Shown here: positions 1,708-29,559 of the stretch, piece after piece
Position numbering within the stretch: position 1 is the first letter of the stretch
Layout: the number at the start of each line of letters is the position of its first letter
IMG/VR virus record: IMGVR_UViG_3300046450_002773
Span: 1-33,783 of that record
Strand: one strand, 5' to 3'
DNA: 33,783 nt
From: a virus
The notes under the pieces: model-generated
The model's input: only the letters and a program-made list of their open reading frames with translations
The model's database searches: none
Told to the model about the DNA's origin: nothing
Program-made: the position numbers and the translations under genes

Positions 1708-2301
1708 TTACCAAAGATCATCTTCTTCACTCGCGTCCGCAACTTCGCGAACAACTTCTTGTTGATTCTGCTGATTTTGAGCCAGCTTTTTCTTGAACGT
1801 ATCCTCCATGGTTTTATCTGTTATCAGGAAGCTTTCCCGCAGAAGATACGCTAAGTGTTCTCTAAGCAGTTTTCCTTCTGGGAAAGTTAAGCCTATAACA
1901 AAACTTGATTTATTCGTCGAATCTTCTTTCGATTCTCTAGTTACCCTAAGGGAAAAGCCTTTTTGCACGGTTCCTTCGATCCATGTTCCTTCTTCGTTTT
2001 TCGATTTAGGAACGTAAGGGCCGAAGGTAAACCTTACGACTTGATTGCTTCCGTGGTAGCCTGAAACCTCTACGTTTCTGTCTATCGCATCCATAAAGGC
2101 GGCTATTTCTGTCTGGCTAAATTTAATATTTACATTCTTACCTTCAACTTTTTTATTCTTTTGAAATGACCCAATTTTGCGACCGCTATCCCAAGAGTCT
2201 TGCTTAATTAGGTTGGAGAAAAAGGAATTGTCTCTCTTGTTGAGATAGAAAGACATGGCCGTGCCTGTCACTTTCGGAGTTGGTTTGTAAAAACTGATCA
2301 T
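1708..2301 (-). CDS. Putative single-stranded DNA-binding protein with acidic C-terminal tip
   Basis: The N-terminal ~150 residues are beta-rich with conserved-looking aromatics (FYKPTPKVTG, FFSNLIKQDSWD, VRFTFGPYVP). A Gln-rich linker (QNQQNQQEVV) follows, then an acidic tip ending SEEDDLW. A DNA-binding body, a flexible linker and an acidic tip with a terminal hydrophobic residue is the architecture of SSB proteins, where the tip binds replication partners. No OB-fold motif is identified outright; a PC4/Whirly-like fold is equally possible. It is first in a two-gene unit with its own near-consensus promoter only a few bases upstream, and the polymerase gene ends 31 bp before it. Moderate confidence in an ssDNA-binding role. 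Confidence 0.5.
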   Translation of the reverse strand: MISFYKPTPKVTGTAMSFYLNKRDNSFFSNLIKQDSWDSGRKIGSFQKNKKVEGKNVNIKFSQTEIAAFMDAIDRNVEVSGYHGSNQVVRFTFGPYVPKSKNEEGTWIEGTVQKGFSLRVTRESKEDSTNKSSFVIGLTFPEGKLLREHLAYLLRESFLITDKTMEDTFKKKLAQNQQNQQEVVREVADASEEDDLW

Positions 2302-2336
2302 AGTAATAATTATAGAGGTTTTTTAGTTTACGTCAA
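2302..2336 (-). promoter_or_regulatory. Sigma70-like promoter, leaderless arrangement, for the SSB-like gene
   Basis: On the minus strand TTGACG (2331-2336) is followed after 16 bp by a perfect TATAAT (2309-2314). Only 7 nt separate the -10 box from the ATG at 2301. The predicted transcription start falls on or next to the A of the ATG, so there is no room for a ribosome binding site. The -35 box overlaps the last codons of the upstream polymerase gene. Confidence 0.75.
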
Positions 2337-4870
2337 GCATCTTTTAAGTCGGAGAGCTTTGTGTATATTTTATTGGTCTGGATAGCTATCTTATCAGCGA
2401 AGACAACCTCTTCCTTCTTTTTTCCAGTTACTATTACAATGTTATTTTCTTCGGGGGGGTTGTTAGCGTTTTCTGCCATCATTTGAGCAAGCCTGTTGGA
2501 GAAGATCATCACTTTCATGTTGGCTGTCTCGTCTTTTACGAAGACTTTCATGTATTCATTGTCGTTTCTGGACTTACCGAAGAAAGGCTTGTCTTCAACT
2601 GCCCCAACAAACGATACGGTCTCGTCAATCTCAGACTCTTCCACTGTTCTTAGGGAAAATAACCCCTGTCTTTTCTCTTGGAAAATATCTCTTAACGTTT
2701 TTCCTGAGGTATACCCTAATAGATGGTTTTCGTAATACCAGTTTGCGAATGATTCGGAGTATTTGTTCTTGAAGTAAATTTGCTTGTATGGCTCAGACTT
2801 CTTTCTAATGGTTTTCATTCTGGTTTCCTTCACCATGGGCTTACCTTTGTCATCTTTTTTAATGGATAGACACTTCATTATCTCTACTAAATCAAAATTA
2901 TATTTATCAGCAAGCAAAAGGGCTGCCGCTTTTTCTTTTTTCGTGAGGATATTCCACAATTGAGCCTCGTAAACTATCTTGCTGCGAGACATCTGGAACC
3001 CCTCAAAGGTTCCGGCCTGAATTAAGGCGGATAAAATACCAATGGTGAGACCAGCTTCCTTGGCTCCCTCAAAGACTTCGAACTTGGTAGAGTAGCAATT
3101 CTTGAAGTCGTTTAATTTTTCAATAGACTTCTCAGAGATACCCTTTATGGAAAGCAGCCCGAAGCGAATATTGTTTCCTTCAGCGTTAAAATCCATTTCA
3201 GATTTTATGATATGAGGAGGGAGTAGCTTTACTCCGAAATCGCTCATCTCTCTTTGCGTTTTTGAAATCTCACGAATTGGGTCAGGTTCATGCCTAGTCA
3301 TCTTGAGAAGGCTCAAGAAGAACTGTTGCGGGTATTTAAATTTAAGGTAAACAGTCGTCGCCGCTAAGGCTGCGTACGAAATTGAATGAGACTTATTAAA
3401 AGAGTAATTTGCTGAGTCTTCTAGCAAGCTCCAAAGAACATCGCCGATTTTGGGATCTAGATTGTTTTCTTTTACCTTGCTTTTTATTTTCCTTTTCCAT
3501 TTACGGACTTCTATTACTTTTTTCTTGCCGACAATTCTGCGAAGTATTTCCGCTTCGTCGAGCGTGAAGCCTATTTTGTTTGCCATCTGCATCATTTGTT
3601 CTTGATACAATGCCACCCCTCCGGTCTGCAATAAAATATCATCAAAGAATGGGTGAATGGATTCACCTTCCCCAGTGTTGGCATACTCAGCGTATTGATC
3701 AACAAAGGCCAATGCCCCCGGACGAGATAGGGCCAGCACTCCGCTCAGTTCTTCTAAGTTTTTAGGTTTAACTTTCTGGCATACCCTAAAGTTCGTGTCC
3801 GCTTCGATTTGGAACAGTCCATGTGGGGTTCTTAGATTTTGTAGGTTATCGTAAATGAGACTGTCGTTTAGATCTATGTCCGAAAGCTCTATGCCAACAT
3901 TTTTACATACATCGTCTACGACTGATACAGCCCTGAGTCCAAGGATGTCCAGCTTGACGTTGAACATGGATACCCAGTTCATATCGTAAGAAGAAACGAA
4001 GCTTTTCTTGTCTGAAGTAAGCTCGGTGGGGCAACTGTCGTCCATCATATCATAAGACAAAGATATTGCTGATGGATGAACCCCTTTGTTTTTGTTTAGG
4101 CCTTTTATTTTTAAGGCTATTTGGTAACACTCGTTATTGTTATCGCACCATTCCCTGAAGTCTGACTCTTCAGCGTAAGCTTCCTTTAGGTCTTTGACTT
4201 GCCCAAAAACCTTTGGGATAAGAGATGAAACTTTATTCATTTCTTGTTCTGATTTAGAAGCCACAACTTTGCCACACTCTTTTACGCATAGCTTTCCGCT
4301 TAGAGTGTTGAGCGTTACGATCTTCGAGGTTTTACCTTTGAATTTGCTCTCCAGAAACTCAAGGACTTTCTGCCTGTTGTAATAACAGATATCCAAGTCT
4401 ACGTCCATCATCAAGGAGCCGTCCAAGTAAGTGATTCCGTCTACTATAGTTTTCTTCGCTCTTATTTTTGAGATAAAACGCTCGAAGAATAAACCGTATT
4501 CTATCGGATCAATTTTCGTGACCCCCATTAGGTAAAGAAGTAAACTTCCCGCAGCTGAACCACGACCAATACCCGTTGGGATTTGCTCTTTTTTGCAAAA
4601 GTTAATTACTTCCCAGACAAGTAAAAGGTAATCCACAAACCCAAGCTCTCTAACTGTTTTAAGCTCGTGGGTTAACCTTTCTCTGTACTTTGGTTCATCT
4701 AACTTTAGTTTTTGTAAACCATCTTCGCAAAGAGACTCTAAGAAGTCTTCGTTACAGATGTCTTCGCTTACACCCAGCTTCCTTTTGTCCTTGTTCTCTA
4801 CTTTAAAAGAAGGGAGCCTAACTCCGTGAATCTTTAAATCGAGGTCTTCAAATTGGTCTATGAAATTCAT
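2333..4870 (-). CDS. dnaE-like: DNA polymerase III alpha, catalytic polymerase part (PHP domain absent)
   Basis: This is a C-family replicative polymerase. Residues ~20-100 match the start of the palm region, followed by GRGSAAGS (102-109) and LDPIEY-type motifs. Catalytic aspartates are visible in MDVDLDI (D158 and D160) and in VKLDILGLR (D308). Fingers motifs ELSGVLALSRPGAL and GVALYQEQMMQMA follow, then a helix-hairpin-like GLLSIKGIS and a C-terminal OB-fold (~730-810, VSFVGAVEDKPFFGKS). The usual N-terminal PHP domain is missing; it is encoded separately at 9347-10096. The break falls where bacterial DnaE has the short link between PHP and palm, just before the LPxF motif. The start overlaps the carbamoyltransferase stop in ATGA. 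Together the two pieces total 1094 residues, close to intact DnaE. Confidence 0.93.
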   Translation of the reverse strand: MNFIDQFEDLDLKIHGVRLPSFKVENKDKRKLGVSEDICNEDFLESLCEDGLQKLKLDEPKYRERLTHELKTVRELGFVDYLLLVWEVINFCKKEQIPTGIGRGSAAGSLLLYLMGVTKIDPIEYGLFFERFISKIRAKKTIVDGITYLDGSLMMDVDLDICYYNRQKVLEFLESKFKGKTSKIVTLNTLSGKLCVKECGKVVASKSEQEMNKVSSLIPKVFGQVKDLKEAYAEESDFREWCDNNNECYQIALKIKGLNKNKGVHPSAISLSYDMMDDSCPTELTSDKKSFVSSYDMNWVSMFNVKLDILGLRAVSVVDDVCKNVGIELSDIDLNDSLIYDNLQNLRTPHGLFQIEADTNFRVCQKVKPKNLEELSGVLALSRPGALAFVDQYAEYANTGEGESIHPFFDDILLQTGGVALYQEQMMQMANKIGFTLDEAEILRRIVGKKKVIEVRKWKRKIKSKVKENNLDPKIGDVLWSLLEDSANYSFNKSHSISYAALAATTVYLKFKYPQQFFLSLLKMTRHEPDPIREISKTQREMSDFGVKLLPPHIIKSEMDFNAEGNNIRFGLLSIKGISEKSIEKLNDFKNCYSTKFEVFEGAKEAGLTIGILSALIQAGTFEGFQMSRSKIVYEAQLWNILTKKEKAAALLLADKYNFDLVEIMKCLSIKKDDKGKPMVKETRMKTIRKKSEPYKQIYFKNKYSESFANWYYENHLLGYTSGKTLRDIFQEKRQGLFSLRTVEESEIDETVSFVGAVEDKPFFGKSRNDNEYMKVFVKDETANMKVMIFSNRLAQMMAENANNPPEENNIVIVTGKKKEEVVFADKIAIQTNKIYTKLSDLKDA

Positions 4871-6519
4871 TTTTCTACTATAAAATTACCTACACAAAGT
4901 GAGTCCGCGTCACTTTCCATAAAGGTTCTGATTGCATCGTATGGAGAATTCACTATGGGCTCGTAACTTAAATTAAAGCTAGTGTTCAGGACTAAAGGTA
5001 TACCAGTTCTTTTTTTAAATTCAAGAATTATATCATGAAAAATTGGATTAGTTTTCTTATAGACTGTTTGAGGTCTGCAAGAACCGTCTACGTGGACAAC
5101 AGCGGGTATCTTATCTTTATAACTCTCTTTAACTTGACACGCCATTAGCATGTAGGGAGAATGAATTTTAGACTCAACCACGTCGAAGTAGTCTTCTTCG
5201 AGAATGCTTGGCGCTAAAGGTCTCCAAGGCTCTCGGCCTTTAATTTTGTTTACTTTATCTAGCATTCCTTTACTGCAAGGGTTCGCTAGTATGCTTCTGT
5301 TACCCAACGCTCTCGGTCCTATCTCTGCTCTGCCTTGGAAGTTGCAAACAACCTTATCTTGGGCAAGTAAATCCGCAACACGTTCGGATGGATTGTTGTA
5401 ATGAGTGTAATTTAAATTTTGCTCGTCTAGCTCTTTGTTAATATCGTCTTGAGAAAATTCAGACCCCCAGTATGCATGATCAAAATTATTCTCAAAATTA
5501 CCGCCATGCTCTTTGCATCCTAAAATTGCCGCACCAAGAGCCGTTCCGTTGTCCGCCGCAGCGGGTTGCACAAAAACCTCATCCACGAAATCGAGCGAGG
5601 CTAAGTGCCCATTCCCTGTACAATTTAGAGCGACACCGCCAGCGAGACAGAAGTTTGAGCAACCATTGTCGGCAACCATTTCTATAGCTTTTTTGGTTAG
5701 GTAATTGTTGTAATGGTGCTGTAGCATGTACGCCGTATCCTTGCCTTCCTGCGACAAGGGGTCCACCATCTTACCGGACTGAATGCTCCAGCCTTTTTTC
5801 TCGAAAAACATATTGTACTCAAACAGGTTTGGAGAGCCATCTGGCATGAATAAACCCGGGAGAGCCTCAAGGTTGTACTTCCCGTAAGAAGCCAGCCCCA
5901 TTGTTTTCCCTTCTCCAGAATGGCGTATGAAGCCTAAAAATTCAGTAACGTCTTCCCAAATCCTCCCCCAAGAATAATCTACAGGAATGACTTCATTAAA
6001 GCTTAGCGGGTTTACTTGGTGAGTGGTTATATCGTGGTAATTAGAAAAAGTTCCTTCACTAAACCCGAGCCAACCGCTGCAATCATCTCCAGATCCATCT
6101 AGAGAAAGTAGATTGCTAAAAGAAAAACCACTGCAAAAAAACGAAGAAGCGACATGGCAGAGGTGATGATTGTAATAAGAAACTCTTGCATCTATTTCTA
6201 GGCTCGAAAAGCCAGCTAACATTCTATCTGTAGAAAGTTTTAGAAAATCAGCACGATCCCGTCGTTTTTGCAACTCGGTGTTTGGATTCCACCCGCAAGC
6301 AATCACATCTAAATCTTTTGGTCCAATCCCACCAACTCTAAGGCATTCTTTTATTGCGTTCGCGGGAAAATCTCCATGCGATTGTCCATTAAAAACATTT
6401 GTAGCGTGCTTGTTTCTGGTGAAGCGTTCCTCTTCGTTTATGGAAACTATTTTGCCGTCCATTATGAGGCATGCGGCAGTGTTCCAGCTTATGGGGTGAG
6501 TTATTCCTAATACATTCAT
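4867..6519 (-). CDS. Carbamoyltransferase, NodU/CmcH/TobZ family
   Basis: The family transfers a carbamoyl group from carbamoyl phosphate, through carbamoyl-adenylate, to hydroxyls of sugars or small molecules. All landmarks are present over 550 residues. These are a Kae1-like N-domain with NEEERFTRNKH (~28-38) and metal-binding HHLCH (118-122), LDGSGDD, CLAGGVALN, and QPAAADNGTALGAA. A C-terminal domain has GRAEIGPRALGNRS, REPWRPLAP, VDGSCRPQTV and LNTSFN. It looks complete and active. It overlaps its upstream and downstream genes by 4 bp and lies between a GT9-like gene and Pol III alpha. The acceptor is unknown: a phage-modified surface glycan, a virion glycan or a modified nucleotide are all possible. 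High confidence in family, low in substrate. Confidence 0.93.
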   Translation of the reverse strand: MNVLGITHPISWNTAACLIMDGKIVSINEEERFTRNKHATNVFNGQSHGDFPANAIKECLRVGGIGPKDLDVIACGWNPNTELQKRRDRADFLKLSTDRMLAGFSSLEIDARVSYYNHHLCHVASSFFCSGFSFSNLLSLDGSGDDCSGWLGFSEGTFSNYHDITTHQVNPLSFNEVIPVDYSWGRIWEDVTEFLGFIRHSGEGKTMGLASYGKYNLEALPGLFMPDGSPNLFEYNMFFEKKGWSIQSGKMVDPLSQEGKDTAYMLQHHYNNYLTKKAIEMVADNGCSNFCLAGGVALNCTGNGHLASLDFVDEVFVQPAAADNGTALGAAILGCKEHGGNFENNFDHAYWGSEFSQDDINKELDEQNLNYTHYNNPSERVADLLAQDKVVCNFQGRAEIGPRALGNRSILANPCSKGMLDKVNKIKGREPWRPLAPSILEEDYFDVVESKIHSPYMLMACQVKESYKDKIPAVVHVDGSCRPQTVYKKTNPIFHDIILEFKKRTGIPLVLNTSFNLSYEPIVNSPYDAIRTFMESDADSLCVGNFIVEK

Positions 6520-7388
6520 AATTTATCTATCCAATCAGCTAAGTTTTTGTCACACTCCTCTTTTTTGTTGGCGAAATCCATAATACAGCAATTGTCGTTT
6601 CCGACAAGTTTATATTTATAGCTTCTTATGTTCATTACGTCGTTCACCATGCCGTGCCCCCCTGCCATAGCTGTTTTGATTCCCGCAGCCTTTGAGTACC
6701 AAGCTGTCCAGCTACAACAACTTACATTAAGTTTACTATAGTTCCAGATCAAATCCAATGATTCAAAAAAGGTTAATTTGCCGATAAGATTTAGTATTTC
6801 GTAATCATGCAGTAAATATGGATAATATTTATACATAGCTTCGTTATCTTTCTCACCGCCAATTAATATTATTTTATATCCACCGCCCTTAAGACTACGC
6901 ACTGTCTCTTTCCAGACCGGAAGATAGTACTCCTCAAATTCTTCTGGGGGCTTGTTCGTTAGTGAGATGGGATGCAATACGGCGACCTTTTCGTTTTGCA
7001 GAATTCCAGCGTTAAACTTCTGAGGAAAAAGGTCAATATCTACATCTTCTCTTATATCGTTTTCCCAATCCGCCATAGGAGGAAGGTCAACGAATTCAAT
7101 ATTATAGTTTGAATTATCTATGGAAGCGGAAAAATCCCTTTGGTGAAAGTCAAAAATTAATCCTTTTACGAATCTAACTGAATTTAAGAAATTTAATACG
7201 TTTGCATTTGCTGGGAAAAAGTTCTGCGAATTTGGATGCCAGAATTGTTTCCCAGTATGGTAAACGACTTCATCTTTTTCAAGGTTGATTAAGTTTTGTT
7301 TGGTTTTGCAAACATCTATGATAGTGTCTCCGTAAAATCCAGAGGCAATCCAAGAATGAAATTCTTTTTCGTGGTGAAACTTGTTCAT
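6516..7388 (-). CDS. GT-B glycosyltransferase-like protein, heptosyltransferase (GT9)-like
   Basis: This is a ~290-residue protein. Its C-terminal half has the second Rossmann domain of GT9-type enzymes: VAVLHPIS, a helix with EYYLPVWKETVRSLK, the strand YKIILIGGEKDN, then LNLIGKLTFFESLDLI and SCCSWTAWYSKAAG. GT9 enzymes transfer ADP-heptose-type sugars; the donor here is unknown. The N-terminal half is shorter and more divergent. I chose the ATG at 7388 because it makes an ATGA overlap with the DnaQ stop, the linkage used by its neighbours. An ATG at 7403 (starting MDDRV) is the alternative and would overlap by 19 bp. Fold assignment is fairly secure; sugar specificity is not readable. Confidence 0.7.
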   Translation of the reverse strand: MNKFHHEKEFHSWIASGFYGDTIIDVCKTKQNLINLEKDEVVYHTGKQFWHPNSQNFFPANANVLNFLNSVRFVKGLIFDFHQRDFSASIDNSNYNIEFVDLPPMADWENDIREDVDIDLFPQKFNAGILQNEKVAVLHPISLTNKPPEEFEEYYLPVWKETVRSLKGGGYKIILIGGEKDNEAMYKYYPYLLHDYEILNLIGKLTFFESLDLIWNYSKLNVSCCSWTAWYSKAAGIKTAMAGGHGMVNDVMNIRSYKYKLVGNDNCCIMDFANKKEECDKNLADWIDKL

Positions 7389-8023
7389 AACTCGATCATC
7401 CATTTTATCTTATTCCAGACTTTTATATTGAGACGCAAGTCAACAACTGCGTCATGGAGGTCATCGTCGTCATGCTCTATTTCATACTCTCTGCCTAACG
7501 CTGCCAAGTTTGTCCTAACCCCTTTCCTTCTTTCGCTATACATTTTGTATTGGTACTCTAAGAAGTTATCGCTTTGCTTGTAGTAGTTTCCGAACTTCAG
7601 ACCCTTAGCTATGCAGTTCGTGTCTATAATTTTTTCTACAAGATGCTTGTAGGGCTTACCCATGTATTTATAGAAGTCTTTTATTAAATATAAATCGAAG
7701 CCAAGGATGTTGTGTCCCACTATGTAGTCGGCGTTATCCAGCCAGTCTTGCATGGTGGGGAAAACTTCTTCGGGGGATAATCCCTTTTTTTCTAATACCT
7801 TCGGGTTAAACTTCGTTATCCTCGCCGCGTCTGCGCTGATTTTTAAATGGGTATCCCATTTTATGTGGTAATTCTTGGTAGCCACGGTTTTGTCTCCCAC
7901 GACTTTAATCATGCCTATCTGCCAAGGTAGGTTATGGCAAGAATTTAAGCATAGATTTAATGTTTCGCAGTCAATGAAAACATATTCTTTTTCTCTATCG
8001 AATCTTAAGTATTGTTCATCCAT
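7385..8023 (-). CDS. dnaQ-like: DnaQ-like DEDDh 3'-5' exonuclease (Pol III epsilon-like)
   Basis: Motif Exo I is YVFIDCETLN (D18, E20), Exo II is VGHNILGFD, and Exo III is the late HDAVVDLRLNIKVW with the His and Asp of the DEDDh type. Length (212 residues) fits the epsilon catalytic domain. No clear C-terminal tail for clamp or alpha binding is seen. Its place between the two separated pieces of Pol III alpha suggests it proofreads for that polymerase; phage C-family polymerases lack an internal exonuclease. It overlaps the upstream GT34 gene by 8 bp and the downstream gene by 4. Confidence 0.88.
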   Translation of the reverse strand: MDEQYLRFDREKEYVFIDCETLNLCLNSCHNLPWQIGMIKVVGDKTVATKNYHIKWDTHLKISADAARITKFNPKVLEKKGLSPEEVFPTMQDWLDNADYIVGHNILGFDLYLIKDFYKYMGKPYKHLVEKIIDTNCIAKGLKFGNYYKQSDNFLEYQYKMYSERRKGVRTNLAALGREYEIEHDDDDLHDAVVDLRLNIKVWNKIKWMIEL

Positions 8024-9350
8024 TATTGTATAGGTCTGGCCTGTATTGTCTTAACAGCATGTCTCTGCCTCCGTGATTTATAGAAGCGAAATGCAACACG
8101 AAATCTCCATCTTCGTACGTTCCTTTATCATACTCCTTCATATCTAAAACGAACTTGAAAGTACCACATTCGTACGTATTGCCTTCTGTGAAAAACTCTT
8201 TAGTCTCTTTAGCTACCGAGTTGAATTCCCTTTGCTTGTGGACTTTTATTCTGATTCCTTTCTCCCAAGCACTGTTCATAAATGCTCCTTGCTCCCATAG
8301 GAACGCGTCGATGTGTTCTTCTTTTGAATAGGTATAGTTCAATAGATCTTTAGCCTTGTCCGAGTTTTTAACAAACCAAGCCCCAGTGTTCCAAGAAAAA
8401 GCATCTTTGCAAAGGGCGAAATCATATTTGTTATCAATAAATTTTTCTAGCTCTATAGAGTCATTCATTATGACTGCATCAGCATCTATCCAAAAAACCC
8501 AGTCATATCCTTCTTCGAGGGTTTTAAGAATGTACAAGATTTTACTCCAAGGAGGAGGTCTTGACTCGTCTAGCGTTTGCCAGTATTCCTTCCAGTCGTA
8601 GCCGTGTTTCTCTGCATAAGCCTTGTTGTTTTTAAATATAGGCTTTGCATAAGAGTCTATATCTGGCGTGGCGAACGATAACATGCATATACTTTTCTTC
8701 TTTAAAAGTTTAAAGATCGATTTAGATTTTTCTTCCGCAGCTAAGCCAGCGAAATGGATTATAAAATCTCCATCTTTGTATTCTCCAGCCTTAGACCTTT
8801 CGGAGTCCCAGTAATACGTCTTTTCGTTTACTTTCGTATACCAGCCTTCGCGAGACCCTTGCACTGGGTAGGAGTTCATGCTCCTCTGGGAGAGCGGCTT
8901 AACTTTATAGTAATCGTTGTTCTCAAGCACTTCAATCCAAGCAGCTTGCTCTTCCCAAGGGTGACCGACATGATGCCCCTTCTCTATACATTCCCTTAGG
9001 AACTTTTTTGAAGCTGCCGTGTTCTTCATTAAGAATACGCCCGTGTTGTAGGCGAAGCAGTCCTCGGTTATTAATAGGTCGAAATCATCATCTATTAAAT
9101 TTTCTATTTTTATGTTGTTATTAACTATTATAGCGTCAGAATCAACCCATAAAACCCAATCGAATAGTTCTGTTTCGAAAATATCTAGCATCACTTTTAG
9201 CTTGCTCCAGTTAGCTGGGCGGTCATCAAGTAAATCTTTGTAAGAACGAAAAGCGTAACCATTCGTACGGCAATATTCTCTTCGGTTTTCGAAAACCTCT
9301 TTCTGATACGGAAGGTTATCCGTAGCTAAAGTCGTTACCGCGATGTTCAT
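8016..9350 (-). CDS. Tandem-duplicated GT34-like galactosyltransferase
   Basis: Two copies of the same GT-A domain lie head to tail. Copy one (~1-215) has NWSKLKVML, WVLWVDSDAII (D70-x-D72), NTGVFLMKN, EQAAWIEV and DGDFIIHFAG. Copy two (~220-440) repeats these as PWSKILYIL, WVFWIDADAVI (D289-x-D291), NTGAWFVKN, EQGAFMNS and DGDFVLHFAS, offset by 219 residues. This layout matches the GMA12/MNN10-type GT34 family, which uses UDP-sugars with Mn2+. Both DxD motifs are intact, so both halves may be active, for example adding two successive sugars. It overlaps the PHP gene by 4 bp. The acceptor is unknown. Confidence 0.85.
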   Translation of the reverse strand: MNIAVTTLATDNLPYQKEVFENRREYCRTNGYAFRSYKDLLDDRPANWSKLKVMLDIFETELFDWVLWVDSDAIIVNNNIKIENLIDDDFDLLITEDCFAYNTGVFLMKNTAASKKFLRECIEKGHHVGHPWEEQAAWIEVLENNDYYKVKPLSQRSMNSYPVQGSREGWYTKVNEKTYYWDSERSKAGEYKDGDFIIHFAGLAAEEKSKSIFKLLKKKSICMLSFATPDIDSYAKPIFKNNKAYAEKHGYDWKEYWQTLDESRPPPWSKILYILKTLEEGYDWVFWIDADAVIMNDSIELEKFIDNKYDFALCKDAFSWNTGAWFVKNSDKAKDLLNYTYSKEEHIDAFLWEQGAFMNSAWEKGIRIKVHKQREFNSVAKETKEFFTEGNTYECGTFKFVLDMKEYDKGTYEDGDFVLHFASINHGGRDMLLRQYRPDLYNNG

Positions 9351-10096
9351 GCGTTTTTCTCCTTCCAGCTTTCTACACAGAATTCATCGCTAGTCATGTG
9401 TTGGAGCTCCGGTTTATCAAGCGTACTCCTGCCATTAATACACCTGAACGTTAAGTAAGCTTTGAAGTCTTTCTTGCTTTTGTAGAAAACGCTTTGAGCC
9501 TTTTGCGTATCGGTCGATATGTTTATTACTTTTTGCTTAATCAAGTCGTCGAACGGTAAGTCGTTATCCTCGATAAAGTAAGTGAGGTCGGCGAAGTTAA
9601 GCTCTGGCACACAAATGTTATTCTCCAAAGTATTCTTAAAGATGTAAGAGTCGTAGAATGGTATCACCATTTTAAGTTCTGAATTGTCCCAGAAAGACTT
9701 CATGTTCTTGTAATCCATTCTGGGCTCATAATAGAAACCCTTTCTTGCCGCGAAAGAGAATATCTTAATTAATTTTTTGTACCCTTCGTTATTTTTAATG
9801 AAAATTATGACCTTGTTATTAGTCTTTAGGGAATCCTTTGACTTGTCCTCTATATCGAGACACATAGTCATCCTGAGCCCGAAAATTAATTTAACATTTA
9901 ATTCTCTTGAGTTTTGGTAAGCCTCCAGAAAGCCCGTTAAGCAGTCTTCCACTAAGGTTAGCTCCCGCAAGTCGCTCTCTTTAATGATGGAAAATATGGA
10001 ATCTGATTCGTCCGGCTGACCATCGACAGAAGTTAGGTTAAGTATAGATTTGCCTAGACTGTAGTGGCTTTTAAATAAGGGTATCACTCCGCTCAT
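9347..10096 (-). CDS. dnaE-like (PHP part): PHP domain of DNA polymerase III alpha, encoded as a separate protein
   Basis: This 249-residue protein follows the DnaE PHP pattern. It opens with a first strand FKSHYSLGKSIL (compare HVHSxYSLLDG), then LTLVEDCLTGFLEAY (compare LALTDHGNLxGAxEFY), VKLIFGLRMTM (compare IKPIIGCEV), NNEGYKKLIKIFS, and a terminal CINGRSTL ... MTSDEFCVESW. The last matches the end of bacterial PHP domains, where the palm begins. The metal-binding His and Asp of active PHP domains are mostly replaced (first HxH reads KSH; TDH reads VED), so it is probably structural. The rest of the polymerase is encoded at 2333-4870. It is preceded by a 30-bp gap and the RecB-like gene. 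Confidence 0.82.
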   Translation of the reverse strand: MSGVIPLFKSHYSLGKSILNLTSVDGQPDESDSIFSIIKESDLRELTLVEDCLTGFLEAYQNSRELNVKLIFGLRMTMCLDIEDKSKDSLKTNNKVIIFIKNNEGYKKLIKIFSFAARKGFYYEPRMDYKNMKSFWDNSELKMVIPFYDSYIFKNTLENNICVPELNFADLTYFIEDNDLPFDDLIKQKVINISTDTQKAQSVFYKSKKDFKAYLTFRCINGRSTLDKPELQHMTSDEFCVESWKEKNA

Positions 10097-10126: not shown

Positions 10127-11107
10127 TCAAGCCCAATCAAAGGGGTCATCGCTATCATCGCTGGAAGAAGCGTTGTATTGGTGCGCGGGGCATCCTTCGT
10201 ACCTTAATTTGACTACTCTTTCTCCCTTACTGGGCTCTCCAACTCCCTTTTTTTCGAACGAAGTTTTTAGTACGTCATCAAATTCGTCCTTAAGAGCGTA
10301 ATACTCTACTGGGTCAAGGTAGGGGCATCTCCAAGTTGCTCCCGCTTTGCATAACCATTTAGATTTAGGGGAATCTGAGGCAAAATTAGTTTTAGCTCTC
10401 TTGTAATCGAAGCTGTTAATGATTTTGTAAACGTGGGCCAAGTAATGCTCAAACCCTTTAAGCTGATCCTCGCTGGCCTTGACCTGTTGAAGCGGTTGTC
10501 TTGGGAATTTTAGAAATTGAAATTCGACTTCCACATCTTTGATCTTAGGGTAAAGCTTCTTCTTTGAGGCTAGGGTGTAAGCCATGGCCTGAACATTAGC
10601 GGTAAGTTCGTCTCCTCTGAATTTATATTTACTCGTTTTGTAATCTATTATCTTAACCTTGTTTTTATAGACGAGAGTCTTGTCTATGAATCCTCTAATT
10701 TTGTACCTTGGGTTTTTGCTCTCTAGGAGAAATGCTAGTTCTGGGGCGGCTGGCTCTAGCTCTTCTCCCGTGCCGTAAAAGTCTTGGTTTAAGCAAACAA
10801 GTATCATGCTCATGCATAATTCGAAATTTTCCTTAGTGAGGGCTTTTACCTTTTTTAGGTTTTTCTTAACTAGCCTTACTATGGCCTCGCTGGCTTCCGT
10901 GTTAGATTCTTTTAGTATAAGGTCGTAGTGTTTTTTATGCCTTACGTTGAGAAGGCATTCAAATATTAAGTGACACACAGTACCCCTTCTTGCGCCGTCA
11001 TTGCCTCTCTGGGGGATTTTCAGGTGATAGTTGCACCAATATGACCAACTGCAGCTTTCTAGTGTTTTGATCCTAGAGGCTGATAATATTTTTTTATCTT
11101 TTCCCAT
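10127..11107 (-). CDS. RecB/Cas4-like PD-(D/E)XK nuclease, probable Fe-S protein
   Basis: The N-terminus SASRIKTLESCSWSYWCNY is the classic start of RecB/Cas4-family nucleases. GTVCHLIFE (motif with active-site His) follows, then the core IRGFIDKTL (Asp) and VKIIDYKTSK (D-x-K), and the helix QAMAYTLA. Cysteines at 19 and 25 and a later WLCKAGATWRCPY ... EGCPAH set could hold an Fe-S cluster like AddB/Cas4. The C-terminus is acidic (SSSDDSDDPFDWA), resembling partner-binding tails. It likely processes DNA ends for the RecA/annealing system. GGAAAAAG precedes the ATG. Confidence 0.83.
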   Translation of the reverse strand: MGKDKKILSASRIKTLESCSWSYWCNYHLKIPQRGNDGARRGTVCHLIFECLLNVRHKKHYDLILKESNTEASEAIVRLVKKNLKKVKALTKENFELCMSMILVCLNQDFYGTGEELEPAAPELAFLLESKNPRYKIRGFIDKTLVYKNKVKIIDYKTSKYKFRGDELTANVQAMAYTLASKKKLYPKIKDVEVEFQFLKFPRQPLQQVKASEDQLKGFEHYLAHVYKIINSFDYKRAKTNFASDSPKSKWLCKAGATWRCPYLDPVEYYALKDEFDDVLKTSFEKKGVGEPSKGERVVKLRYEGCPAHQYNASSSDDSDDPFDWA

Positions 11108-11134: not shown

Positions 11135-11260
11135 CTACTTAATCTTAGCAAGGTTTTCTTTTATTGCAATATAAAAAACACATATAACGCAGGAAATTAA
11201 GTAGCATAAAGCTACGGAAAGCACCCAAGGAACAATGATAAAGTATTTAAGCTTGCTCAT
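11135..11260 (-). CDS. 41-residue single-pass membrane protein
   Basis: A short frame starts inside the end of the dehydrogenase gene (14 bp overlap) and stops 27 bp before the nuclease start. The peptide begins MSKLKYF, then has a ~24-residue hydrophobic span (IIVPWVLSVALCYLISCVIC) and ends with a charged tail KENLAKIK. Position in a tightly packed operon and a clean membrane-spanning pattern argue that it is real. Function unknown. Confidence 0.6.
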   Translation of the reverse strand: MSKLKYFIIVPWVLSVALCYLISCVICVFYIAIKENLAKIK

Positions 11261-12353
11261 AGGGAGCGTCTCCGACTTTTTCCCTCAAGAGATCCATGTT
11301 TTCTGTAAATTTTTCGTAATTTACGTCCCTATAACTTAATTGTCGGGGCTTATCGAGCGACCCGCCGCTTACCATTTCTTTAGCTACAGAAGCCAAAGAA
11401 AATCCTGTTGCTTTTTGCATAGCTGAGTATGGGCAAGTCGACGGGTTTTGTCGAATTAGCATTTCTTTTTCCCAGTTTTCGCCAGACTTACTTTTGATGG
11501 AAACCTTTATTAAGACTATATCTTTAGAGCCCTTTGATGCGCACCCTTGAAATACGCTGGTTAAACACTCATCGCTAAGCGCGCATTTTCTAATTAGAAA
11601 TTCAACGATATCGCAATGACCTTGATATCTTAAGGTTTTGTAGGAGCAGTCTAATACTCCTCTCTCTAACATGGACTGGCTAGAGTGAGACGCTCCTCCG
11701 CTGGTGTAAAACGCCTCTAAATTTTTATTTAAAGCCTTGGAGAATACTTGCTCAAGCCCAGTCATGCCCTTCTTCGGCACATGGCTTCCGTTCTCTAAAA
11801 TTACGCAGCTATCACGGTATTCGTTTATCAAGCCGTCTATTGACCAAGTGACAGAGTAGTTTAGGGGGTTGTCTGGCGCTTCAGGTATGCCGCCAACCAT
11901 CATTTTAACTTCTGACGCTTGACTTCCGGTTTTCAAAAGCTCATCACATCCGTGCTCCGCTAATATGTTTACCCATCCGGGAGCTAACCCTAAATCGGTA
12001 AAAACAGGAGTGCTTGTTCCCCACTGATTTATTTTATCAGAGACATCGACTCTGCCTCCTAGATCGCAGTAAGGTATGTGGCTGTGAAGAATACATTGCT
12101 TGGCGACTGCTTTAGTTTGATGGTAAGGTAAGGAGGATATAACTATGTCTGGCGCGGTTAGGGCCAGCGACTTTGTTATATCGTTTTCGTTTTCAACCTT
12201 TAAGAAATCCATGGTTGGGGGCAGGTTGGCTGCAATCCTGTCGTCTTGATCTAGAGCAATTACATGAAAACCAAATTCATTCATGGCCCAAGATATTGTT
12301 TGGCCCATCCTGCCAATACCGCAAATCACTGCTCTCGGTTTTCTGTCATCCAT
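11247..12353 (-). CDS. Saccharopine dehydrogenase / lysine 6-dehydrogenase-like oxidoreductase
   Basis: An N-terminal Rossmann fold is visible: AVICGIGRMGQTIS (GxGxxG at 12-17) and an acidic residue ending the second strand (ALDQD), favouring NAD. Further motifs are DIVISSLPY, PYCDLGG, VFTDLGLAPGWVNILA and MVGGIPEAP, all typical of the saccharopine-dehydrogenase-like family, which includes lysine 6-dehydrogenase and carboxynorspermidine synthase. Length ~368 fits lysine 6-dehydrogenase. I use the ATG at 12353, overlapping the previous stop by 8 bp; a TTG at 12362 is the alternative. An aldehyde dehydrogenase in the same operon suggests a linked pathway, lysine to aminoadipate semialdehyde to aminoadipate. 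Substrate is inferred, not shown. Confidence 0.75.
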   Translation of the reverse strand: MDDRKPRAVICGIGRMGQTISWAMNEFGFHVIALDQDDRIAANLPPTMDFLKVENENDITKSLALTAPDIVISSLPYHQTKAVAKQCILHSHIPYCDLGGRVDVSDKINQWGTSTPVFTDLGLAPGWVNILAEHGCDELLKTGSQASEVKMMVGGIPEAPDNPLNYSVTWSIDGLINEYRDSCVILENGSHVPKKGMTGLEQVFSKALNKNLEAFYTSGGASHSSQSMLERGVLDCSYKTLRYQGHCDIVEFLIRKCALSDECLTSVFQGCASKGSKDIVLIKVSIKSKSGENWEKEMLIRQNPSTCPYSAMQKATGFSLASVAKEMVSGGSLDKPRQLSYRDVNYEKFTENMDLLREKVGDAPYEQA

Positions 12354-12579
12354 ACCAATCAATCCCTTTGTTATCTTTTTTTTGTTTAAAGTTTAATGTT
12401 CTTTTTATTCTGGAAACGATCCCTTCGCTTTCTTCGTTCGGATAGAGACCCTCCTTCCTTCTTCTCTCAACTTCTTGCTTGTTCCACTCTTCTTCCTTTC
12501 GCCATTCTTCCTGCTCTTCCGGCGAAAGGTGCGGAGGCATGGCGCTTTTAAATTTATCAAAAAAATTCTCTTCTTTCAT
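12346..12579 (-). CDS. Small charged hypothetical protein
   Basis: This 77-residue protein has an unusually high Glu/Lys/Arg content. The middle is a helix-forming EEQEEWRKEEEWNKQEVERR stretch likely to be a single charged helix or coiled coil. No known domain is recognised. It starts 4 bp after the stop of the 47-residue membrane protein and overlaps the dehydrogenase by 8 bp, so it sits within the coupled operon. Confidence 0.65.
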   Translation of the reverse strand: MKEENFFDKFKSAMPPHLSPEEQEEWRKEEEWNKQEVERRRKEGLYPNEESEGIVSRIKRTLNFKQKKDNKGIDWYG

Positions 12580-13553: not shown

Positions 13554-15089
13554 TTATTTCATTCCTTGTGGGAAGGTTAACTTATCCGCGTGATTCACGG
13601 TCCAGCTAATCTCGTGTGTTACTGCTCTGTATGTCCTTGCTGCGCTAGGAAAGCCGTTTCCTGACTTCTTTACGCCGCCGAAAGCGAGGTGTGATTCAGC
13701 GGCGATAGAGCCACCGTTCCAATAAATCATTCCAGCGTCACAATCGTCTCGTAAGATTCGCGCTTTACGGAAATCATTCGTAAGAACACCCACTGCAAGA
13801 CCATAATCAGTGTCGTTATAAATATCAATTGCATCTTCTAAAGTGTCGAAAGGGATAATAGAAACGTGAGGGCCAAATACTTCGTTTTTAAGATAAGGAA
13901 CGTCTCTCCATTCCGTCTTGTAAACCATTGGCGACATGAAATATCCCGGTTCTAGATCTTTAACTCGTTCTCCGTTGAGTAAAATTTGAGCGCCCGGATC
14001 TGCTCGCACCATGTCATTGTAAGACTCTATTTTGTCAATCCCTTGTTGATTAATTATCGGGCCGTAGTAAATTTCTTTATTAGGAGCATAGTCTTCCCAG
14101 CATATCGCTGCGGGAGTACCGCATGACCCCATACGCTTATTAAAGGGGTTGCCTGTTTTTAACTTAGAGGCTTCTTCGCTAAATTTTTCCGAGAATTCGT
14201 CGTAAATCGTTCTTTGGACTATCATTCTGCCGGAAGAAACGCACCGTTGACCGGAGAGCTTGAACGCGCTTGCAACTGTTGCTTCTATAGCTAAACTCAT
14301 CTCAACATCATCGAAGACGATACACGCAGATTTACTGCCCATTTCGCAGGAGGTGGTTTTGTGCCAGCTTTCTGCGGCTACTTTTCTAATGTGTTGACCG
14401 ACTTCGGCAGACCCAGTAAAACAAATATGATCGACATCGGTGTGGGTTAAGAAATCGCCAGTATCACCACGACCGTGAATCATGTTGATTACTCCATGCG
14501 GAAGACCTGCTTCTTCATAAATTTCGATAGCTATTTGCGTGGAAATTGGAGCATCTTCACTAGGCTTAAGTATAACGGTGTTGCCTTCTACTAGTGCTGG
14601 GGCAGCACACCAAAACGCTCCTATGGCTAAGGGGAAATTAAACGGAGATATAATAGCTATTACCCCCTTCGGTTTACGAAGCATGTAAGAATCCTTGTCC
14701 TCCACCTCAGACGAAAGCACTTCGCCATGGGAATAACGGCCAGAGCTAAAAGCGAACTGAGCCATGTGAAGAGCTTCATTTACTTCAGCGATACTTTCGT
14801 TGTAATTTTTTCCCGTTTCCCAAGAGATCGCCGTAGCTAATTCCTCTCTTCTTCTTTCGACAATCTGAGCAACTTTATACATGTAGTCCGAACGAACGAA
14901 CCTGCTTAATTTTCTCCAACTATTGAAAGATTTTCTCGCCGCAGTGTAAGCGTCATGCACGGTGGACTCGCAACTATCAGGGAATACTCCCATGCATTCT
15001 CCCGTGGCGGGATTGGCTTTAGAAAAAGACGCTCCTTGCGGACTTAGCCACTTTCCGTTTATATAGTTTTTTCCTTCGTAATCCTTCAT
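13554..15089 (-). CDS. Aldehyde dehydrogenase (semialdehyde dehydrogenase-like)
   Basis: A full-length NAD(P)-dependent ALDH of 511 residues. It shows SPFNFPLAIG with the oxyanion Asn (N151), the cofactor loop LKPSEDAP, FTGSAEVG, the catalytic Glu in CEMGSK (E249), the nucleophile in SGQRCVSSG (C283), NEVFGP and FGGVKKSGNG. All catalytic residues are intact. AAGGAA lies 6 nt before the ATG, a good ribosome binding site, and this gene opens the long operon. Several ALDH families share these motifs; ALDH7/aminoadipate-semialdehyde dehydrogenase is suggested mainly by the lysine-dehydrogenase-like gene downstream. Exact substrate cannot be read from sequence. Confidence 0.9.
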   Translation of the reverse strand: MKDYEGKNYINGKWLSPQGASFSKANPATGECMGVFPDSCESTVHDAYTAARKSFNSWRKLSRFVRSDYMYKVAQIVERRREELATAISWETGKNYNESIAEVNEALHMAQFAFSSGRYSHGEVLSSEVEDKDSYMLRKPKGVIAIISPFNFPLAIGAFWCAAPALVEGNTVILKPSEDAPISTQIAIEIYEEAGLPHGVINMIHGRGDTGDFLTHTDVDHICFTGSAEVGQHIRKVAAESWHKTTSCEMGSKSACIVFDDVEMSLAIEATVASAFKLSGQRCVSSGRMIVQRTIYDEFSEKFSEEASKLKTGNPFNKRMGSCGTPAAICWEDYAPNKEIYYGPIINQQGIDKIESYNDMVRADPGAQILLNGERVKDLEPGYFMSPMVYKTEWRDVPYLKNEVFGPHVSIIPFDTLEDAIDIYNDTDYGLAVGVLTNDFRKARILRDDCDAGMIYWNGGSIAAESHLAFGGVKKSGNGFPSAARTYRAVTHEISWTVNHADKLTFPQGMK

Positions 15090-28324: not shown

Positions 28325-28957
28325 CTAAATATTATCTTGATGCTCGTTAGAATTCATCTTCTTATGGAGCATTCTTACACCTTTTTGGTGCAAATTGATA
28401 GCTGTTTGCGTACTTGTGTTTATTTTTGAAGCTATAGTACTCCAAGTAGCTTTTTTATTTTTAATGTCTTTATCGAAATACCTTAACTTAAATACTTTAG
28501 ATATTCTTTTGTCTTTTAATTGTTTTAAAAGCTTAAAGACGTACTCTTTGTCGTTTTTTAAATTACTTTCATCGTCGAACTCCTCTTTGCTTTTGTTTAT
28601 CATAATGGTCTCGATCGTCTCGTCTTCTAGGTCTACAAATCTGTTGCGGGAATTAATGAAAGTTAAACAGAAGTATTTGGAGCAGTTCCCGAACCAAGTT
28701 GAGAATTTAGTGTTCTTGTTCGGTTTGTAACTTCTTACAGCTTTAAACAGGACGAAGCTTTTTTCTTGAAACATGTCTTGTCTTCTAAAACCTTTAGCTT
28801 CTGCTACGGGTGCGTAGATCTGACACATTTTATAGAATAGCTTTTCGTGACGATCTAAGAGAATCAGGAAACTTTCATTGCATCCTGTAGCTTTTATCCT
28901 TCTGACTAATGTATTGTCAACGGGAAGCTTTTTTAGTTTTTTTGCTGCGATAGCCAT
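28325..28957 (-). CDS. Sigma-70-like factor (ECF-type layout)
   Basis: 210 residues. Region 2 spans ~35-115: LIL..RHEKLFYKMCQIYAP, the core-binding FRRQDMFQEKSFVLFKAVRSYKPNK, and KFSTWFGNCSKYF, matching sigma region 2. Region 4-like helix-turn-helix is at ~150-200 (FKLRYF, WSTIASKINTSTQTAINLHQKGVRMLHKKM). Region 1.1 and most of region 3 are absent, as in ECF factors. It overlaps the dNMP kinase by 25 bp. It may direct host RNA polymerase to phage promoters, for example the TGTAA-type boxes. Confidence 0.75.
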   Translation of the reverse strand: MAIAAKKLKKLPVDNTLVRRIKATGCNESFLILLDRHEKLFYKMCQIYAPVAEAKGFRRQDMFQEKSFVLFKAVRSYKPNKNTKFSTWFGNCSKYFCLTFINSRNRFVDLEDETIETIMINKSKEEFDDESNLKNDKEYVFKLLKQLKDKRISKVFKLRYFDKDIKNKKATWSTIASKINTSTQTAINLHQKGVRMLHKKMNSNEHQDNI

Positions 28958-29559
28958 TTGACGAATTCACCAACATATGGTTCTAGTTCGTCGATTTGAC
29001 CGGTTTCAATGAAAGGCCATTCAATTTGAAAGTCACTTTTATCTTTTATTTTTGGGTCATTTCTGGTTTCCTCGCTGTTTGCAGGGGTTTTGAATTTTTT
29101 AAGTTTGCCCTGAGTAATTGATAAGCCCTCTTCGTGTGCTTTTACTTGAGTAAAACCTAAATACATAGAAACATGAACTAATACCCCTCCTAGTTCGTTT
29201 TTTAACCAACTTACTTCATCGTTTTCATAATCATCATACCTTATATCTGTTATGATTTTAAAATTTTTAGATTTATCGTTAATGATATTGTCGTTAAGCT
29301 TATCTAACCAGTGCCTACCCTCGCTAGAATTTCTTTTGAACTTAGCGTGGTAAACTAAGAACTCCCTGATCAACTCCTTTTCTTCTCTCGCGCAATTAAC
29401 GGAATCTACACCGTAATGAATCATGCACCATCGCTGGACTTCTTTCTTAAGCTCGTCAGCTAAGGAAAACCTCGTGCAAGGAATGTGCCGGGAAAGCAAC
29501 GAGAAGAAAGTGTCCTTACCGCTTCCGGCAACACCTGATACTCCTATAATCTTGTTCAT
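28933..29559 (-). CDS. Deoxynucleoside monophosphate kinase
   Basis: P-loop GVAGSGKDT (9-17) with the dNMP-kinase spacing and FSLADELKKEV after it. Further landmarks are an Arg-rich lid region and a conserved ITDIRYDDYENDE strand-loop. 208 residues, the size range of T4 gp1-type enzymes. It phosphorylates dNMPs to feed the RNR-made dNTP pool. It lies directly after the non-coding block and overlaps the sigma-like gene. The -10-like TATAAT sits only 2 nt before its ATG, so its true promoter is not clear. Confidence 0.8.
   Translation of the reverse strand: MNKIIGVSGVAGSGKDTFFSLLSRHIPCTRFSLADELKKEVQRWCMIHYGVDSVNCAREEKELIREFLVYHAKFKRNSSEGRHWLDKLNDNIINDKSKNFKIITDIRYDDYENDEVSWLKNELGGVLVHVSMYLGFTQVKAHEEGLSITQGKLKKFKTPANSEETRNDPKIKDKSDFQIEWPFIETGQIDELEPYVGEFVKWLSQQKN

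Follow-up and report, generated by a model that had tools for sequence, protein, structure and literature searches.

The single C-family (DnaE-type) polymerase of a 33,783-base virus fragment, IMG/VR record IMGVR_UViG_3300046450_002773 (called here, over its whole length, the window, to which all position numbers refer), is divided between two genes on the minus strand, one coding for the PHP domain (PHP) and the other for the palm, fingers, HhH, and OB domains (POL), with the gene of a DnaQ-type exonuclease (EXO) located between them (Table 1). This split is a permanent feature of an entire, large clade of uncultivated phages and not an artifact. After removing duplicates from the hundreds of relatives that IMG/VR scans gave for each piece, a total of 228 distinct loci showed PHP, EXO, and POL, always as separate open reading frames (ORFs) in that order (228/228) and never with PHP fused to POL. 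From the sequences compared, we consider it likely that the three products make up a split replicase that assembles noncovalently in trans. The alpha chain would have undergone a single, ancient, and permanent split in the PHP-palm linker, with PHP and POL now associating noncovalently into the normal DnaE fold. PHP, itself inactive, would contact the palm through the face that it uses in intact DnaE and act as a structural subunit, and the neighboring DnaQ protein would proofread, as in the alpha-epsilon pair of Escherichia coli. The junctions among the three genes would attract mobile endonucleases and other cargo, and the three glycan or carbamoyl genes that occupy them in the window would take no part in replication chemistry.

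Only one PF07733 match was found in the whole window. Against phrog_405, a profile of the full-length phage polymerase, POL covers positions 313 to 1082 (2.7e-146) and PHP positions 65 to 289, i.e., different, adjoining parts. The original prediction for this DNA had described the polymerase as two separate genes with several named genes in between; both ORFs were found where it had placed them, on the minus strand, together with all the intervening genes. Its count of four unrelated genes has to be lowered to three (GT34, GT9-like, and carbamoyltransferase), since the DnaQ gene belongs to the conserved set. Nor is the split a peculiarity of the window, as it had been presented, for the same separate layout extends across the clade, and the search of related contigs that it had proposed, for unsplit forms and for gene order, returned the PHP-EXO-POL order in all loci and none fused.

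Covariation and conservation of the three gene products

Inter-gene covariation was evaluated with 138 distinct loci (ca. 94 effective sequences). Four residue pairs with z values of >6 linked PHP to POL, while there were none between EXO and POL or in the pairs involving the nuclease gene, one between PHP and EXO (6.2), and one in the downstream-gene control (6.5). The strongest pair was PHP K107-POL D278 (z = 8.4), and the same patch contained PHP R118-POL T282 (z = 7.0) and PHP F217-POL C280 (z = 5.9). POL residues 278, 280, and 282 are every second position, as would line a single side of a strand, and the same PHP helix (residues 103 to 119) carries both residue 107 and residue 118. The combinations found at PHP 107 and POL 278 were K-D in 50 loci, K-E in 20, and E-K in 25; where both residues were charged, the charges were opposite in 101 of 104 loci (76 plus/minus and 25 minus/plus) and alike in three. 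When PHP was swapped among the three nearest relatives (25 trials), the z value of this pair fell from 8.4 to a mean of 3.8, with a maximum of 5.9. In a tree test of the sign changes, six to seven of eight independent pairs were concordant and none discordant (median P of 0.03). Intact DnaE almost always has D or E in the column equivalent to POL 278, which is what inheritance of the contact from a fused enzyme would predict. This charge covariation, weakened by the swaps of partner and unmatched by the comparison gene pairs, favors noncovalent assembly of PHP and POL in the normal DnaE fold.

Several points weigh against this assembly. The best pair was chosen as the maximum of a scan, which makes the P value of the sign test optimistic, and the covariation has a base of ca. 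94 effective sequences. Two more of the high PHP-POL pairs (79/626 and 237/585) lack a structural explanation. EXO had no clear covariation with either PHP or POL (maximum z of 6.2), so that its role as the proofreader of this polymerase rests on gene order and family. Finally, the AlphaFold2 (AF2) model of POL alone has its lowest confidence within the palm (parts of residues 139 to 310, including 278 to 310), which fits a need for PHP, although a shallow alignment alone could cause it.

PHP keeps the fold of its family: its AF2 model (pLDDT of 88) retains the barrel, and Foldseek retrieved DnaE PHP domains with it (E value of ca. 1e-11). Its metal ligands, a matter on which the original prediction was silent, have been replaced, namely both His of HLH, the Asp of LLDG (by Lys), the His of TDH (by Asp), and the Glu of GVE (by Arg). 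Thus, in place of the nine-ligand set HHDHEH[C/H]DH of an active PHP proofreader, the window and its relatives have other residues, and the DnaE-specific tail motifs of PHP are invariant. Because the metal ligands are lost while the active sites of DnaQ and POL are intact, PHP, whose own site is dead, probably works as a scaffold. In E. coli, mutations in PHP lower polymerase activity and stability, and PHP inactivity accompanies a separate epsilon (PMC3666897). In one locus (L082:8015-9370), the C terminus of PHP is fused to a phrog_18407 protein, which elsewhere is separate cargo of the same junction.

POL has Taq and E. coli DnaE as its nearest PDB matches, and its Foldseek hits are to DnaE, with PolC far weaker. 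The catalytic Asp triad, which had been predicted to be intact, is indeed so, with D156, D158, and D308 invariant in 36/36 aligned sequences together with GRGS-A-G; the palm signature GRGSAxGS is therefore present, and the mean column identity is 62%. The fingers are followed by HHH_6 (5.8e-14) and by an OB region that is weak in Pfam (0.011) and whose folds were matched by structure. Bacterial replicases are described as carrying PHP, palm, thumb, and fingers in one chain (PMC3666897); in this clade, PHP is a separate gene in every locus.

The residues D18, E20, D110, H190, and D195 of EXO, invariant in 29 aligned sequences, constitute the DEDDh signature by which DnaQ-like exonucleases are recognized (PMC12926913). 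The exonuclease domain takes up residues 15 to 202 of 212, leaving little of a C-terminal tail such as that by which epsilon binds PHP. Since its gene lies between PHP and POL in 228/228 loci, it is a core member of the replicase set and not an intruder. Between EXO and POL, about half of the clade has a small conserved gene (ca. 66 to 105 amino acids, starting with M-[AP]-S-[LM]-D) that is absent from the window. The corresponding gap of 60 to 300 bp was found in 123/228 loci (examples are L009:9769-9984 and L072:9754-9993), and the product, with no family match, could be an accessory replicase subunit.

As an alternative to assembly, PHP may have left the polymerase for another job, for example, that of an independent phosphoesterase or regulator, with POL working alone. 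The polymerases of JG024, kaset, and Carpasina, where the PHP region is almost unrecognizable, suggest that little PHP may be enough for some C-family enzymes. However, the loss of the metal ligands makes a separate enzymatic job unlikely, the DnaE-specific tail motifs are invariant, and PHP has been kept in all the loci and covaries with the palm. For these reasons, we regard a departure of PHP to other tasks as unlikely.

One clade and other divided DnaE enzymes

In an unrooted tree of the catalytic core (43 rows), the split polymerases formed a single clade with a support of 100/100 and a branch length of 1.4. No close unsplit sister was found, the intact phage and bacterial enzymes being at most ca. 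32% identical, and no intermediate between the split clade and the intact forms appeared in the tree. Within a bacterial genome collection we retrieved only one member of the clade, L160, on a contig binned with a Flavobacteriaceae metagenome-assembled genome.

In phages, DnaE has been split on several occasions. Microbacterium phage Krampus and its relatives have a 345-amino-acid PHP gene beside a 767-amino-acid polymerase gene, and a two-gene DnaE in Krampusvirus (cluster EF Microbacterium phages) has been reported (PMC7302621). In Arthrobacter phage Wollypog, an HNH endonuclease gene separates the DnaE halves, whereas Streptomyces phage Yara, a sister that is ca. 60% identical, has an intact DnaE. 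As in the window, the DnaE of Krampusvirus and Wollypog was cut near the PHP-palm border into neighboring genes, but their cut is further downstream, after the LPKMDR motif, and no DnaQ gene lies between their halves. A shared origin of both splits was rejected (P = 2e-47 in the approximately unbiased [AU] test of one clade, and an intact sister, Yara). phiT1 and Cuke, in turn, have their DnaE cut elsewhere, between palm and fingers, both at the same place despite their distant kinship (L083:3164-6446 and L254:3134-6369).

The tree being unrooted, it is more probable, though not proven, that a fused ancestor underwent fission; the separate state could instead be ancestral, with PHP, exonuclease, and polymerase fused later in other lineages, and the long branch and the lack of intermediates would suit such an origin. 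However, recent fissions are seen directly in Krampus and Wollypog compared to the intact Yara, and intact DnaE is near universal in bacteria. Besides, intact DnaE retains ligands that are missing from PHP, so that PHP derives from an active form. Ancestral separation therefore seems to us very improbable.

The division of labor between alpha and epsilon is textbook knowledge. E. coli Pol III resembles the system proposed here in having an inactive structural PHP that binds epsilon, a separate DEDDh exonuclease, and a DnaE polymerase (PMC3666897), but its PHP is part of the polymerase chain, and the phage EXO has no obvious epsilon-like tail. Bacterial PolC likewise combines PHP, a DnaQ-type exonuclease, and a C-family polymerase. 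There, however, all three are in a single polypeptide, the exonuclease lying within PHP, and the phage POL groups with DnaE, not PolC, by both sequence and fold searches.

The break point and inteins within POL

In a profile alignment to an intact DnaE (Tagabacteria), PHP stops at the equivalent of residue 251 and POL residue 9 pairs with residue 273, which means that only ca. 13 residues of the linker are absent and that neither domain is truncated. This agrees with the predicted position of the break in the PHP-palm linker. The absence of intein halves at the break was also borne out, as neither the PHP nor the POL ORF gave an intein match. Conserved DnaE motifs lie within a few residues of the PHP end and of the POL start, leaving no space for intein halves of ca. 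95 and ca. 37 amino acids. In L160, the PHP/EXO and EXO/POL junctions are both 4-nucleotide overlaps (ATGA), with no room for an intron or an intein, and an Rfam search for an intron at the break gave no match. An intron at the break was thus discarded.

Inteins do occur in the polymerase of this clade, but none at the PHP border, where an intein was rejected; the true ones lie at another place in the POL of relatives. In L130 and L142, POL contains a split intein at an NK|SH site, which served as a positive control of the search, and L156 has an intein there with HNH and NUMOD4. L269 probably has another split intein, with a POL N-terminal part showing a weaker N-intein match, a free-standing ORF of 312 amino acids with a weak endonuclease match, and a POL C-terminal part. 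The split inteins at this site (L130:7630-10632, L142:3726-6701, and L269:4998-8906) are possibly new and potentially useful for protein ligation work.

Phage genes fractured by split inteins (gp41/NrdJ types) and genes in pieces via homing endonucleases (Aeh1 nrdA) are known. The window clade is similar in that an essential phage gene is broken, free-standing endonucleases are found nearby, and some members have such inteins in POL. However, the PHP-POL break is intein free, fixed clade-wide, and holds a core DnaQ gene and not only a mobile gene. The cyanobacterial dnaE is likewise two genes, with the halves ligated by a split intein, but the clade studied here lacks an intein at the break.

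The inteins of L130, L142, L156, and probably L269 might suggest that PHP and POL are joined after all into one chain by protein (split intein) or RNA trans-splicing, but all of them are inside POL at NK|SH, and the lack of intein and Rfam matches, of space at the conserved motif ends, and of any gap in L160 makes such joining extremely improbable. Hardest of all to credit is a rearrangement introduced by assembly or sequencing, or a polymerase in decay whose work is done by an intact copy elsewhere: although the window alone, a 33.8-kb fragment, cannot exclude a second copy, the same order recurs in the 228 loci, POL is conserved with an invariant active site, and 25 long contigs (72 to 203 kb) had no second or fused polymerase copy, with exactly one DnaE (POL) match in 25/25 and exactly one PHP match in 24/25.

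With the covariation across chains, the lack of an intein, of room for an intron, and of a fused or second copy in the long contigs, a two-polypeptide alpha held together noncovalently, as originally predicted, is the most likely arrangement. More tentatively, and with some doubt on our part, the three-subunit replicase might be obligate in the clade, PHP being a detachable bridge that binds the palm in trans and places the exonuclease, with subunits that could be exchanged or regulated separately and, in some members, a POL rebuilt by a split intein.

C-family replicases are well known and two-gene phage DnaE is in print, so that splitting as such is not new. So deep a split, the PHP-EXO-POL layout, and evidence that the parts assemble in trans are, as far as the searchable literature shows, unreported. 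Here nature itself detached a PHP that lacks its metals and yet retained it. Since the two proteins can be produced separately and then combined, the share of such a PHP in polymerase stability and in proofreading could be addressed directly, without truncation artifacts. The clade also offers a clear example of an essential gene split at a junction that is prone to endonucleases.

Junction cargo and neighboring genes

Along the minus strand of the window, the order is a saccharopine-dehydrogenase-like gene, the PD-(D/E)XK nuclease, PHP, GT34, EXO, the GT9-like gene, the carbamoyltransferase, POL, and two more conserved genes (Table 1).

Table 1. Coordinates of the polymerase genes, key codons, and neighboring genes in the window
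Feature	Coordinates (strand)	Size	Matches and remarks
PHP, stand-alone subunit, metal ligands lost	9347..10096 (-)	249 aa	PF02811 1.8e-10; phrog_405 positions 65-289
POL, catalytic subunit, palm/thumb/fingers/HhH/OB, no PHP	2333..4870 (-)	845 aa	PF07733, PF17657, HHH_6
EXO, DnaQ-like DEDDh 3'-5' exonuclease	7385..8023 (-)	212 aa	PF00929 5.2e-16
GT34-like glycosyltransferase, two repeats	8016..9350 (-)		PF05637 4.6e-33; PHP-EXO junction cargo
GT9-like protein	6516..7403 (-)		PF01075 E=0.043 only; EXO-POL junction cargo
Carbamoyltransferase (NodU/CmcH type)	4867..6519 (-)		PF16861 2.5e-66, PF02543 7e-33, phrog_1601; EXO-POL junction cargo
PD-(D/E)XK nuclease (Cas4/RecB-like)	10127..11107 (-)		PF12705 1.8e-19; conserved upstream neighbor of PHP, order conserved
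Conserved gene directly downstream of POL	1708..2301 (-)		No significant Pfam or PHROG match
PHP Lys107 codon	9776..9778 (-)		One partner of the covarying charge pair
POL Asp278 codon	4037..4039 (-)		Other partner of the covarying charge pair
POL Asp156 codon	4403..4405 (-)		Catalytic with D158 and D308

The glycan genes had been taken as part of a replicase operon, which is not supported: the occupants of the junctions differ by phage, and in L003 and L004, the nearest relatives of the window, both the PHP-EXO junction, where GT34 is absent, and the EXO-POL junction are empty. The comparison of loci indicates that the GT34, GT9-like, and carbamoyltransferase genes are cargo in two junctions filled differently in each phage. 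The PHP-EXO gap exceeds 300 bp in 103/228 loci, and its contents across the clade include LAGLIDADG, HNH/EndoVII, or PD-(D/E)XK proteins, cupins, a sugar kinase, and GT17. Endonuclease genes are known to gather at essential phage genes and to mark exchange boundaries (PMC10448857). Another GT34 was found in the PHP-EXO junction of L089, and a homologue of the GT9-like protein in the same EXO-POL junction of L023. No homologue of the carbamoyltransferase appeared in the loci compared. The base composition of the cargo in the window is near that of its surroundings.

The two largest cargo families of the PHP-EXO junction (36 and 26 members, 150 to 205 amino acids, e.g., L344:6741-7331 and L426:2802-3419) have no Pfam or PHROG match and may be novel mobile endonucleases. 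As for the carbamoyltransferase, such enzymes are reported to be able to carbamoylate 5-hydroxymethylcytosine in phage DNA (PMC8670742), which would suggest a possible role in DNA hypermodification; among the window ORFs scanned, there was no thymidylate synthase-like gene. The window also gave no match to a beta-clamp, which is uninformative in a fragment.

Near the replication genes, the saccharopine-dehydrogenase-like gene (11247-12362), common to the window and L002 to L004, and an aldehyde dehydrogenase gene (13554-15089) are possible auxiliary metabolic genes. Further along, positions 28933 to 29559 hold a dNMP kinase-like gene. At the other end, positions 23 to 247 form a tandem array with a period of 24 bp and 9.4 copies, one frame of which yields an Arg/Gln-rich stretch.

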